DNA from: Candidatus Equimonas faecalis
GTDB lineage: Bacteria > Bacteroidota > Bacteroidia > Bacteroidales > Bacteroidaceae
NCBI GenBank assembly: GCA_018066245.1
Contig: JAGHRT010000021.1
Coordinates: 1-64,000, forward strand
DNA: 64,000 nt
Reading direction: 5' to 3'
Shown: positions 42,517 to 45,100 of the stretch, one piece after another
Layout: every line of letters begins with the position of its first letter
Position numbering within the stretch: position 1 is the stretch's first letter
Notes under the pieces: generated by a model
Database searches by the model: none
What the model was told of the DNA's origin: nothing
What the model saw: the letters and a program-made list of their open reading frames with translations, nothing else
Position numbers and translations under genes: made by a program

Positions 42517-42547
42517 TTTGAAGATTAAAAATAAGTTCGTACTTTTG
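42517..42547 (+). promoter_or_regulatory. promoter of the radical SAM/peptide operon
   Basis: TTTG at 42517-42520, a 19-base spacer, then TACTTTTG at 42540-42547. This is an exact Bacteroidetes consensus promoter. Transcription should begin near 42553, giving a leader of about 390 nt before the radical SAM start codon. Confidence 0.8.
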
Positions 42548-42944
42548 CATCGTCTTAGCCTACACTTGTACATTTTAGGATGTGCGGCAGGATGAGACAC
42601 TACATAATGTGAAAGCGTCATTGATGCTTTGTCTATTGGCTGTGTGAACCTAGGAAATTCATCAGTTGGTCAAGGGCAATGTCAGAAATGAATGCTACGG
42701 GTATGTTCAAAAGTATCCCGGGAGTGTGCATGAGAGGGTATATTATATCCTCAAAGCACACTTTTCTGGAGCATATTGTTCATACTAACGTAGGCATACA
42801 TTCTACAACGTTCACCAACAAGGTCTCCTAGGACCCACACAGCAGACAAGTAGAAGAATGGAAGCCTGCGTTTTTGTGTTATCGTAGTACATGCAATAAA
42901 TTACAAAGGTTTCTTCGGGCTTCAGAGACTATTCAATTGTCACG
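42548..42944 (+). other. long untranslated leader of the radical SAM operon
   Basis: About 390 nt lie between the promoter and the first clear gene. GAGGGTATATTATATCCTC at 42735-42753 forms a near-perfect hairpin. An ATG at 42730 opens a 33-codon frame ending at 42831 (starts MRGYIISSKHTF, rich in His/Thr/Ser, no cysteine), which could be a leader peptide or second small product. No known riboswitch class was recognised. Confidence 0.5.
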
Positions 42945-44510
42945 ATGAATGAAATAAGTGTTGAAGCCCTTAATTCTGGCATGAGTCTTTATAGGCCAGA
43001 ATGGACTTGTGGGCGATACTGCGAGAGCAAGCGGGTTGCCATTATGTATAATCTGATTACAGGCTTTAGTTATTTCTTTGAGGAGTATTCAGCCATTGTT
43101 ATTGGCGAAATTCTAAAGGCCGAAAGGAATGAAGATATTCATGCTAAGAATGTAGAAACAGCTACAGGCATCAGCATGGAATCTTTGTGCCAATTTTTCA
43201 ATGTCCTTGTTCGGGCTGGTCTTCTATCACTGTCTGTTCCTACGGAAGAAGGCATTATGGACTATCGACGTGCAGTATTAGAAGCAAGGAAGTCTAACGG
43301 CTCTTGGGTTGATAGGCCAACGGAAGAAAAGCTTCCTATGGAGGTAACAAATGCAGAGCAAGCGTATTTTACAGCCGTTGATGACGGGAAGACCATTTGC
43401 TCTTGTATGTTTGAACTGACGTATCGGTGTAGCGAGATGTGCATTCATTGTTACAATCCAGGAGCCACTCGCAACAATAACGAAGTGAGCCACCGTGCAG
43501 ACGTGGAAGAGTTGACATTAGCCGATTACAAGCGTATAATTGACGATATGTACGCTCACGGACTCGTCAAGGTCTGTTTGAGTGGAGGCGACCCCTTCTC
43601 AAAGAATTTTGTTTGGGAGTTGCTGGATTACCTGTATGCAAAGGGTATAGCGGTAGATGTGTTCACAAACGGCCAAAGGATAATACAAAAGGTAAAGCGG
43701 CTTGCCGGTTATTATCCCCGATTAGTAGGCGTAAGTATCTATAGTGGTGTGGCAGAAGACCACGACGCGATTACGCGAATCCCCGGCTCTTGGGAAAAGT
43801 CTGTGCAAGTGGTGAAAGAACTTTCTGCATTGGCCATTCCTATGAATCTGAAATGCTGCGTGATGCAGCCGAACCTTCATTCATATTATATGGTTGCAGA
43901 CCTCGCAAAAGAATATGGTGCTGTTCCTCAGTTTGAGATAAACATTACGGAATCAAACGACGGGGACATCTGCGCCAAACAGTTACGTTTGACGGAAGAG
44001 CAACTGCAGGTCGTGCTGCGTGATAATAATCTTGCTTTATATGTGGGCAAGGAAGCACCGAACTACGGCGGACAGAAACGTGATTTGTCTCTTTGCAGTT
44101 GTGGTGCAGGTGCAACGGGATTTTGTATGTCGCCTAATGGAGACCTGCGGGCTTGCACGACGTTTACGCAGGTGTATGGTAACTTGCGGGAGCAATCCGT
44201 CGTAGAAATACTGGCTGATAGCCCTTTGCTCAAAGAGTGGAGGACGGCGGTCGTGGCTGATTATGCCGAGTGCGGAAAATATGATTACTGTGATTATTGC
44301 AACCTATGCGCAGGAGTTAATTATACGGAGCATGGAGATTTCCGCCAGCCAGCCGAGACGAATTGCTTTATGGCCAAGTGTCGGTATAATCTGGCGCATA
44401 AGTTGATGGAGCATGATGAGCCGATGACGAGAGAACAATTCATAGAAGCGTTGCAAGCGCTCCCTATTGAAAGAACAGCCTTGCAGCGCCAATATCGTAA
44501 TAAGGGATAA
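42945..44510 (+). CDS. radical SAM/SPASM peptide-modifying enzyme with PqqD-like N-terminus
   Basis: 521 residues. Residues about 30-105 resemble a PqqD/RRE winged helix that binds precursor peptides (GFSYFFEEYSAIVIGEIL, then FNVLVRAGLLSLSV). The radical SAM core binds its [4Fe-4S] cluster through Cys162, Cys166 and Cys169 (CSEMCIHC), with the GGDPFSK motif near 210. A SPASM region for auxiliary clusters begins at Cys384/Cys386 (CSCGAGATGFCMSPNGDLRAC) and continues through CGKYDYCDYCNLCAG and NCFMAKC. Such enzymes install thioethers, C-C crosslinks or epimerise residues in RiPPs. The 34-residue peptide gene 49 bases downstream is the obvious candidate substrate. Codon use is AT-richer than in the nuo genes. 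Confidence 0.88.
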   Translation: MNEISVEALNSGMSLYRPEWTCGRYCESKRVAIMYNLITGFSYFFEEYSAIVIGEILKAERNEDIHAKNVETATGISMESLCQFFNVLVRAGLLSLSVPTEEGIMDYRRAVLEARKSNGSWVDRPTEEKLPMEVTNAEQAYFTAVDDGKTICSCMFELTYRCSEMCIHCYNPGATRNNNEVSHRADVEELTLADYKRIIDDMYAHGLVKVCLSGGDPFSKNFVWELLDYLYAKGIAVDVFTNGQRIIQKVKRLAGYYPRLVGVSIYSGVAEDHDAITRIPGSWEKSVQVVKELSALAIPMNLKCCVMQPNLHSYYMVADLAKEYGAVPQFEINITESNDGDICAKQLRLTEEQLQVVLRDNNLALYVGKEAPNYGGQKRDLSLCSCGAGATGFCMSPNGDLRACTTFTQVYGNLREQSVVEILADSPLLKEWRTAVVADYAECGKYDYCDYCNLCAGVNYTEHGDFRQPAETNCFMAKCRYNLAHKLMEHDEPMTREQFIEALQALPIERTALQRQYRNKG

Positions 44511-44559
44511 ATGGTGTCTCCCCTGAAGTACACCTATAACCTTCAAATTCTATAAGATT

Positions 44560-44664
44560 ATGAAAATAGAACTTGGAATTAAGACCGCATCCTTTGTGGC
44601 TGCAGCCTCTGGTTGTCCTGCATATATGGAGTTCACTTGCGGAATAGCCTACCGTATGTCGTAA
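44560..44664 (+). CDS. candidate RiPP precursor peptide (34 aa, two cysteines)
   Basis: Short frame from the ATG at 44560 to the TAA at 44662-44664. A stop lies in frame just upstream, so the peptide cannot be longer. It begins MKIELGIKTASF (leader-like, one Glu and two Lys), then an Ala-rich hinge VAAASG. The core-like C-terminal half is rich in Cys, Gly and aromatics: Cys19-Pro20, Tyr22, Phe25, Cys27-Gly28, Tyr31. It sits between a radical SAM/SPASM gene and a strong terminator, exactly where precursors are found. I do not recognise a named precursor family. No Shine-Dalgarno sequence is visible, which is usual in Bacteroidetes. Confidence 0.6.
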   Translation: MKIELGIKTASFVAAASGCPAYMEFTCGIAYRMS

Positions 44665-44698
44665 CGGATGCAGCTAAGAGAACACCCTCTTGGCGTTT

Positions 44699-44737
44699 TA
44701 TCGGGGAGGAGAAAAGCCTCCTCCCCGATTTTTTTCA
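44699..44737 (+). terminator. strong intrinsic terminator of the RiPP-like operon
   Basis: ATCGGGGAGGAG and CTCCTCCCCGAT form a perfect 12-bp stem with a small AAAAGC loop, followed directly by seven T. It closes the unit 35 bases after the 34-residue peptide gene. Confidence 0.92.
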
Positions 44738-44773: not shown

Positions 44774-45100
44774 ATGGAAAACAAAGGAAAAAGACAATTT
44801 GAAGAACTTATGGCAGAGTATAATATGCCAAATGTCGCAGAAAGTAGGAAAGAAGAAATAATCACATTAATGCAGGAATATTTGCAAAAAAACTATGGCG
44901 AAAGGTGCGTTAACGTAAAATGCCCTAATGGAAAGACGTTTCCTACTCTTCCTGATAATATTGAAGATTTACGTGTCATCGAAGCGACCCTAAGAGCAGA
45001 AGAAAAGAGAAAGAATAATCAAGAAAATGCTGAGAAGATTTGTGACCGTATGACAAGCATGAATAAATATTCAGAGGAACATCCCTATCCGGGCCAATAG
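44774..45100 (+). CDS. hypothetical 108-aa charged protein
   Basis: Soluble, strongly charged, helix-rich protein of 108 residues. Features: KEEIITLMQEYLQKNYGER, two cysteines near residues 45 and 50 (RCVNVKCPNG), then a helical EATLRAEEKRKNNQE tail. No signal peptide or TM segment, and no recognised family. It begins 37 bases after the RiPP-operon terminator, without a clear TAnnTTTG promoter. It may form a pair with the Sel1 protein 62 bases downstream. A and T richness mark it as part of the accessory segment. Confidence 0.65.
   Translation: MENKGKRQFEELMAEYNMPNVAESRKEEIITLMQEYLQKNYGERCVNVKCPNGKTFPTLPDNIEDLRVIEATLRAEEKRKNNQENAEKICDRMTSMNKYSEEHPYPGQ

Follow-up and report, generated by a model that had tools for sequence, protein, structure and literature searches.

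A radical SAM/SPASM enzyme and a 34-residue peptide in Candidatus Equimonas faecalis as a candidate crosslinked RiPP system of an undescribed family within a leader-RNA regulon

The 64,000-nucleotide stretch analysed here (contig JAGHRT010000021.1 of Candidatus Equimonas faecalis, assembly GCA_018066245.1, positions 1 to 64,000; hereafter the window) includes a compact unit in which a promoter, a leader of about 400 nt, a gene for a radical SAM/SPASM enzyme, a 34-codon peptide gene and a perfect terminator follow one another. The best explanation of the whole, to which we assign a probability of about 0.6, is that the unit specifies a crosslinked ribosomally synthesized and post-translationally modified peptide (RiPP) of an undescribed family, expressed within a regulon headed by a folded leader RNA. 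Conservation in relatives makes it very likely that the peptide is a RiPP precursor and that the enzyme is the maturase that modifies it. Promoter, long leader, enzyme, peptide and terminator had all been proposed in a first-pass annotation of the letters of the window, and all were borne out. The features of the unit are the following.

42517..42547, + strand: Bacteroidetes-type promoter, TTTG-N19-TACTTTTG, read from the letters (TTTG at 42517-42520, TACTTTTG at 42540-42547)
42597..42884, + strand: structured leader RNA (covariance model R2, covariation, fold stability), within the leader span 42548-42944 between promoter and enzyme start
42945..44510, + strand: radical SAM/SPASM peptide maturase, 521 aa, ATG at 42945 and stop codon at 44508-44510 (Pfam, alignment)
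44513..44534, + strand: small hairpin GGTGT...ACACC in the enzyme-peptide gap (sequence and folding)
44560..44664, + strand: precursor peptide, 34 aa, MKIELGIKTASFVAAASGCPAYMEFTCGIAYRMS (open reading frame, recurrence in relatives)
44700..44736, + strand: intrinsic terminator 3' of the peptide, a 12-bp perfect stem (44700-44729) plus a T-run

Relatives of the unit were taken as 29 loci, 23 from a scan of genome contigs and six (L053-L058) from 393 genomes of the order; L003 and L152 were taken as the same contig as L004. A peptide of 33-36 aa was found 3' of the enzyme in 28 of the 29, and in L009 the contig ends inside the peptide. Among the contig-scan loci the peptide follows the enzyme in 22 of 23, an insert intervening in L013, and all six order-genome loci encode it. 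The first-pass annotation had made its reading depend on conservation of this frame, which the recurrence upholds; a chance open reading frame (ORF) was rejected on the same ground.

The two halves of the peptide behave differently, as was seen in a set of 29 peptides that included that of the window. The front, MKIELGIKTASFVAAASG, is a frozen leader and the back, CPAYMEFTCGIAYRMS, a variable core. Between the window and L004 the proportions of synonymous and nonsynonymous differences (pS and pN) in the enzyme are 0.107 and 0.007, and pN is 0.02 in peptide residues 1-18 and 0.23 in the core, the counts per pair being small (8.7 nonsynonymous changes in this core). L017 and L018 gave the same leader and core pN, 0.02 and 0.23, with an enzyme pS of 0.272 and pN of 0.031. 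Enzyme pS is 0.68-0.77 in seven of nine pairs, and core pN exceeds leader pN in all seven more divergent pairs. A leader-like front and a distinct core, as first proposed, are thus recognizable. The core has the spacing C-x7-C in 27 of 29 peptides, the exceptions being L056 (a single Cys) and L058 (CxC), and an exact CG[IV]xYR end in 23 of 29. Deviant ends are CGIMAR in L025, CGITWR in L055, CGTSYR in L057 and CTLAR in L024; L056 and L058 are without the motif. The Tyr is kept in 24 of 29 peptides, with Ala instead in L025 and Trp in L055. When the window peptide was scanned, no Pfam or NCBIfam family was matched at E≤1, which agrees with the initial impression that it fits no known precursor family, and a description of the peptide family is absent from the open-licence PubMed Central (PMC) literature as far as surveyed. 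A gene for a precursor with conserved leader and variable core adjoining a modifying enzyme is the arrangement that marks a RiPP locus, and it is the arrangement found.

The enzyme-peptide family is rare. The enzyme was detected in 2 of 58 genus genomes (E≤1e-40), 7 of 393 order genomes (E≤1e-80) and 1 of 395 phylum genomes (E≤1e-60), the host being included in the first two counts and alone in the third. Many of the enzyme-bearing Bacteroidales come from rumen and hindgut samples. A phage origin was rejected, none of 39 pattern stretches in viral contigs encoding a relative, as was a plasmid origin, no match at E 1e-20 being found among plasmids.

The enzyme matches Radical_SAM (PF04055, 56.3 bits) and SPASM (PF13186, 23.9 bits) above the Pfam cut-offs. 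It has the CX3CX2C motif at C162/C166/C169 and the cysteine set of a SPASM region, positions 386, 394, 404, 443, 449, 452, 455 and 474, invariant in the 23 rows compared (the window and 22 relatives); the two together place it among radical SAM/SPASM proteins. Of the 52 matching NCBIfam families, 25 were listed, and among these no cut-off was reached, each being missed by more than 100 bits. The best match was TIGR03962 (mycofactocin MftC), with 99.8 bits and a cut-off of 265; NirJ2 gave 97.7 of 500 bits, AhbD 95.9 of 500, and the sactipeptide models AlbA and StsB 78.3 of 850 and 50.2 of 625, respectively. Neither an SkfB nor a sulfatase-maturase model was among the matches listed. Membership in MftC, AlbA, StsB, NirJ and AhbD was ruled out by the missed cut-offs, and the initial concern that the enzyme could belong to a non-RiPP SPASM clade found no support among those 25 families, NirJ2 and AhbD included. 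In the PDB, SkfB and then PqqE were the top two of four matches, by sequence and by profile.

The N-terminus had been described as PqqD-like, a description that was not confirmed. The full enzyme had no PqqD match at E≤1 (Pfam), and PqqD was not among the Pfam matches listed (25 of 35 families) for 19 N-terminal domains. When the N-terminal profile was compared by hhalign, PqqD reached a probability of 32 and a MarR control 84 (32 and 74 with longer profiles). The domain is winged-helix-like: generic winged-helix families match it weakly (Pfam, 19 members), and a PDB search with the profile returned 16 matches, mostly winged-helix regulators, the best at E 0.22. RiPP recognition elements (RREs) are winged helices as well, so the low PqqD score is not a negative for an RRE. 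Host contig C39 encodes another radical SAM/SPASM enzyme (L002:1453-2916, - strand), with 29% identity across 354 columns, whose N-terminus does match PqqD (32 bits). A small ORF near it, MKEYKKAQMIAKNLPTGSYAAGCPAEDHGNGYNDYWCRKCERTM (L002:3222-3356, - strand), had no NCBIfam match; this enzyme and ORF are perhaps a separate RiPP-like system.

In the mechanism that we propose, the frozen leader at the N-terminus would be what the enzyme recognizes in the peptide, and the C-terminal core would receive at least one intrapeptide crosslink, thioethers from the two cysteines being the first choice. A Cys thioether is preferred because no other core feature is as widely kept as the Cys pair and because SkfB, which makes a thioether, is the closest solved relative, and we name this bond tentatively, at slightly less than even odds. 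Sactipeptide, ranthipeptide and aromatic-crosslink chemistries are indistinguishable by sequence, and two cysteines in 27 of 29 peptides are compatible with the first of these. The same RiPP logic could operate with a triceptide-like or Tyr-Arg-like bond, carbon-carbon or at an aromatic residue, in the CG[I/V]xYR end, the cysteines then serving structure or recognition. Such a bond would explain an end that is exact in 23 of 29 peptides and an Arg that is retained where Tyr is lost (L025, L055), but L025 has Ala for Tyr, L024 keeps two cysteines and ends in CTLAR, and 27 of 29 peptides retain the Cys pair against 24 of 29 that retain the Tyr. We regard a bond of this kind as unlikely.

Less probable again is a route like that to mycofactocin or pyrroloquinoline quinone (PQQ), in which the peptide would supply the raw material of a small redox cofactor and the M42 aminopeptidase described below would help to cut out a C-terminal fragment. 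The enzyme has its best NCBIfam match in MftC, CG[IV]xY presumably recalls the CGVY end of MftA, and no transporter was recognized by eye among the recurring neighbours, some of which were scanned. Nevertheless, the score lies far below the MftC cut-off, the Tyr is non-terminal and at times absent, and the core is hypervariable, whereas a cofactor precursor should stay fixed at the residues of the product. It is highly improbable that the 34 codons form a regulatory or chance ORF and that the enzyme has another substrate, e.g., a sulfatase or a heme precursor: AhbD and NirJ2 models score 96-98 bits on the enzyme and a hairpin adjoins the frame, but every cut-off among the listed matches is missed by more than 100 bits, and frame, start, length and two cysteines are conserved despite strongly diverged synonymous sites (pS 0.68-0.77 in the seven enzyme pairs mentioned above).

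The crosslinked RiPP proposed here is accompanied by partner genes. Three genes with counterparts in relatives lie beyond the terminator.

44774..45100, + strand: 108-aa protein with no family over the cut-off (Pfam, NCBIfam), also 3' of the peptide in L004, L005, L017, L018 and L020
45163..45921, + strand: Sel1-repeat protein (PF08238, 48.8 bits), also in L004, with a 27% match 2.4 kb 3' of the enzyme in L022
45974..46993, + strand: M42 aminopeptidase, candidate leader-removing peptidase (PF05343, 272.6 bits over 292 of 292 positions, above the cut-off)

An M42 gene starts at most 1.5 kb 3' of the enzyme in 12 of 28 loci, window included, and a protein of about 280 aa is encoded at most 1 kb 3' of it in 14 of 28. 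At least one of these partners is present in 25 of 28 loci; L008 has both, and L019, L024 and L147 (= L056) have neither. L009, whose contig ends, and L058 are left out of this count. The ~280-aa partner was detected (E≤1e-10) in 4 of the 393 order genomes, all four among the seven enzyme carriers and adjoining the enzyme. This family (L010:6928-7761 and 13 relatives) was seen within the 393 genomes only beside this enzyme. No Pfam family was above the cut-off in the four members scanned (L008, L021, L015, L025), and the best PDB match was a CDK-like kinase at E 0.66. All 14 members share KGNGL and LHNA[IL]xxxN...DFEL. The catalytic loop of kinases and aminoglycoside phosphotransferases (APH) is H-x-D-x-x-x-x-N, with a catalytic Asp. 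We take the partner motifs to resemble this core, with Ala at the position of the catalytic Asp in all 14, a combination reminiscent of a pseudokinase.

The residue at position -3 to the first Cys mostly matches the partner. It is Ala in 10 of 11 loci with M42 only (Met in L020) and Met in 12 of 13 loci with the ~280-aa partner only (Pro in L054), with a Fisher p of 5.6e-6, uncorrected for kinship; L008 (both partners), L019 (neither) and L024, L056 and L058 (divergent or without C-x7-C) are left out. The partner changed four times on the enzyme protein tree. Among three independent pairs, the -3 residue changed in the same direction in a mean of 2.6 and never in the opposite one. Recombination moving core and partner together would yield the same picture. 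Given its linkage, the size of the peptide and the -3 residue, M42 could be the leader peptidase, a role that we consider possible, at clearly less than even odds. In the lineage of the window it would shorten the leader from its N-terminal end and come to a halt at the crosslink, and in other lineages the dedicated ~280-aa pseudokinase-like protein would stand in its stead. The product may stay at work within the cell or be released along an unlinked route, because no exporter or transporter was recognized by eye among the recurring neighbours, some of them scanned.

Two other genes recur at these loci. A small Cys-rich zinc-ribbon-like protein is encoded near the enzyme or partner in L010 (4777-4977), L011, L020, L021, L023, L054, L056 and L058. 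A Ser/Thr protein kinase gene lies 5' of the leader RNA in L006, L011, L012, L014, L020, L021 and L022; of these, L006, L011 and L014 were scanned and gave Pkinase scores of 91-97 bits, and the L014 kinase matches the PADLOC mads_6 and PD-T4-6 kinases.

Transcription would begin at a folded leader RNA that the unit shares with other accessory genes. The promoter agrees with TTTG/N19/TAnnTTTG, which we take to be the Bacteroidetes consensus, and a promoter-like motif stands right ahead of the RNA in five of eight relatives scanned for it (L005, L006, L007, L010, L023). The fold of 42555-42944 has a z of -5.1, with 0 of 100 shuffles equally stable, and the L020 leader a z of -5.7. The RNA consists of two long-range helices, H1 (GCTGTGTG / CACACAGC) and H2 (CCTAGGA / TCCTAGG), a conserved internal loop (GAA / (A)GCC in the majority of relatives) and a 3' tail. 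The tail mostly ends in a U-rich stretch and is able to base-pair with the apical strand that lies between the two helices. By eye or model it was found in 23 of 30 loci (window, L004-L007, L009-L015, L017-L025, L053, L150), at the operon start even where other genes separate it from the enzyme. L008 was borderline (E 0.058), and no leader RNA was found near L016, L026, L147, L149, L151 and L058, of which L026 is without upstream sequence and L058 has little.

Compensatory change was assessed in 18 distinct sequences. H1 and H2 strands from the same RNA formed duplexes of -22.9 kcal/mol on average and swapped strands -8.1 kcal/mol, a difference reached in 0 of 10,000 permutations, with windows set by eye around conserved motifs and 5 of 306 swapped pairs reaching the worst own pair. 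This test is the evidence for H1, which MAFFT left out of register in alignments A8 and A9. The tail pairing is possible in each of the 18 sequences (-15 to -33), its own and swapped means being -24.2 and -18.8 (0 of 10,000 permutations), and it competes with the apical hairpin in the copies compared by eye (L005, L020, L053). In A8, across 12 base pairs drawn from H2 and the tail helix, 86.5% of cells were paired versus 68.0% in shuffled alignments (0 of 500), and the covariation score was 0.563 versus at most 0.229 when slid; three tail-helix columns (two inner, one end), paired in 9, 7 and 5 of 16 rows, were excluded. Further pair types, one of the A8 measures, were equalled in 40 of 500 shuffles. 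Competing pairings and the U-rich tail suggest that the leader RNA may be an attenuator; the tail swap control brought this reading from even odds to slightly below them.

Covariance model R2, from which the window and L004 had been left out, gave the leader RNA as its sole significant match in the 64-kb window (22.1 bits, E 1.3e-4; next match 0.79). L004 was matched at E 0.0074; across 55 unrelated loci (167 kb) no match had an E below 0.23. The model that it replaced, R1, had a partly wrong structure (local hairpins), did not list L010 and gave the window RNA just 6.4 bits, which counts against the call. No Rfam family reached its gathering score in the window, and none matched the leader RNA at E≤1 in six relatives; a further Rfam search of the leader RNA gave five matches at E 0.98-4.9, all under the gathering score. 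The leader RNA is thus a covarying RNA without an Rfam match, and a description of it is absent from the open-licence PMC literature as far as surveyed. A separate cis-regulatory RNA, DUF805b (RF02914, 45.6 bits), lies right before the enzyme in L009 (4876-4910), the only one of six loci searched to have it.

The leader RNA is present in many copies. Twelve were found in the host genome at E≤0.0083, that of the window included, and 29 of 58 genus genomes had the RNA by model R1, on which, and not on R2, this count rests. Copies were recorded in the host (L153-L164) and elsewhere (L027-L030, L038-L051, L114-L142), the weaker ones being single model matches. A same-strand ORF of at least 80 aa starts -3 to +346 nt from the RNA end in 26 of 30 fetched matches, and an opposite-strand ORF occupies that position in 9 of 30. 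The genes 3' of the host copies include those for an EcoRI-type methylase (440 bits), a second methyltransferase-like protein (PADLOC MTase_II, E 1.8e-9), a GIY-YIG protein (PADLOC PD-T4-3, E 1.8e-18), a GTPase (43.8 bits), TerB (35.7 bits), DUF6140, an LRR_5 protein (L161, 144 bits; the L159 gene looks alike by eye) and a PD-(D/E)XK-like protein below the cut-off; those 3' of L157 and L160 had no match in the family scans. These gene identities suggest that the RNA may head an accessory, partly defence-type regulon. LytTR-like, FHA-like and caspase-like proteins, named by eye, follow in a row 3' of the L040 copy.

Two claims of the first-pass annotation held in part. The unit was said to occupy an AT-richer island, and the lower GC is real (0.38-0.45 across 42-48 kb versus mostly 0.49-0.63 in the rest of the window), but it extends to about 48 kb, beyond the unit. 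It was also called self-contained; the unit itself is real, but its leader is a generic multi-copy RNA and co-travelling genes lie beyond the terminator. A stable hairpin 3' of the peptide was seen by eye in nearly all 28 folded loci, weakest in L056, so partner genes would be read through or separately transcribed. The 49 nt between enzyme stop and peptide start hold the small hairpin, or possibly an alternative stem GTGGT/ATCAC in Prevotella relatives. These folds are weak, about -2 to -10 kcal/mol, and several loci predict other stems.

Several observations weigh against the interpretation as a crosslinked RiPP in a leader-RNA regulon. The single Cys of L056 and the CxC of L058 mean that the two-Cys rule is not absolute in the enzyme family. 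Core pS is raised too (0.32 for window/L004 and 0.58 for L017/L018, on few sites), and recombination or mutation may share in the variability of the core. The RRE nature of the N-terminal domain is not demonstrable by profile comparison. The link between partner and -3 residue is broken by L020 and L054, and only three independent pairs lie on supported branches (sign test p 0.25). The terminator lies between peptide and M42, and two further genes intervene in the window. Finally, the tail pairing is weaker than H1/H2, 243 of 306 swapped pairs reaching the worst own pair.

Comparison with known systems places the unit near several of them. Like the sactipeptide and ranthipeptide maturases SkfB, AlbA, StsB and PapB, the enzyme combines radical SAM and SPASM domains with an N-terminal winged-helix-like domain and has a small Cys-containing precursor gene alongside. 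It differs in the missed AlbA and StsB cut-offs, the M42 or pseudokinase-like partner, the leader RNA and the fact that no transporter was recognized beside the pair. Mycofactocin shares the best NCBIfam enzyme match (MftC) and, near the C-terminus of its peptide MftA, a Cys-Gly-aliphatic-(x)-Tyr motif; the window peptide differs in a Tyr that is neither terminal nor invariant, a hypervariable core and the unmet MftC cut-off of 265. Rfam families DUF805b (RF02914), FopS and Bacteroidales-1 are, like the leader RNA, cis-regulatory or multi-copy RNAs of Bacteroidetes, DUF805b being the separate 35-nt element in L009. FopS is set apart by its description, in PMC11697453, as a single-stranded 5' part plus terminator. 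In RiPP clusters from the same order, according to PMC10352776, radical SAM enzymes are the commonest RiPP enzymes and the clusters analysed pair GG-motif precursors with peptidase-containing ATP-binding cassette transporters (PCATs); the window peptide is without GG and no PCAT was recognized beside the pair.

A lineage-specific signal or conflict peptide would fit better than a fixed cofactor, because the core is hypervariable and the partners are swapped. A more specific version, which we consider improbable at present, gives enzyme and peptide the effector role in a cassette for lineage-specific conflict or signalling. Its radical-SAM-crosslinked hypervariable peptide would be matched to an interchangeable partner, M42 or the dedicated pseudokinase-like protein, and expression would be gated by an undescribed class of Bacteroidales leader RNA that also controls restriction-modification and other defence-type genes. 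In that event, peptide family and RNA class alike would be new. The unit adds a RiPP family without a curated precursor model, with an enzyme under all cut-offs among the matches listed and an otherwise unknown dedicated partner. With the partner swap and the mostly matching -3 residue, there is a direct way to ask what acts on the peptide. As a covarying cis element present in many copies ahead of accessory genes, several of them defence-type, the leader RNA would, if confirmed, offer a way to find and switch the genes that it heads across the order.

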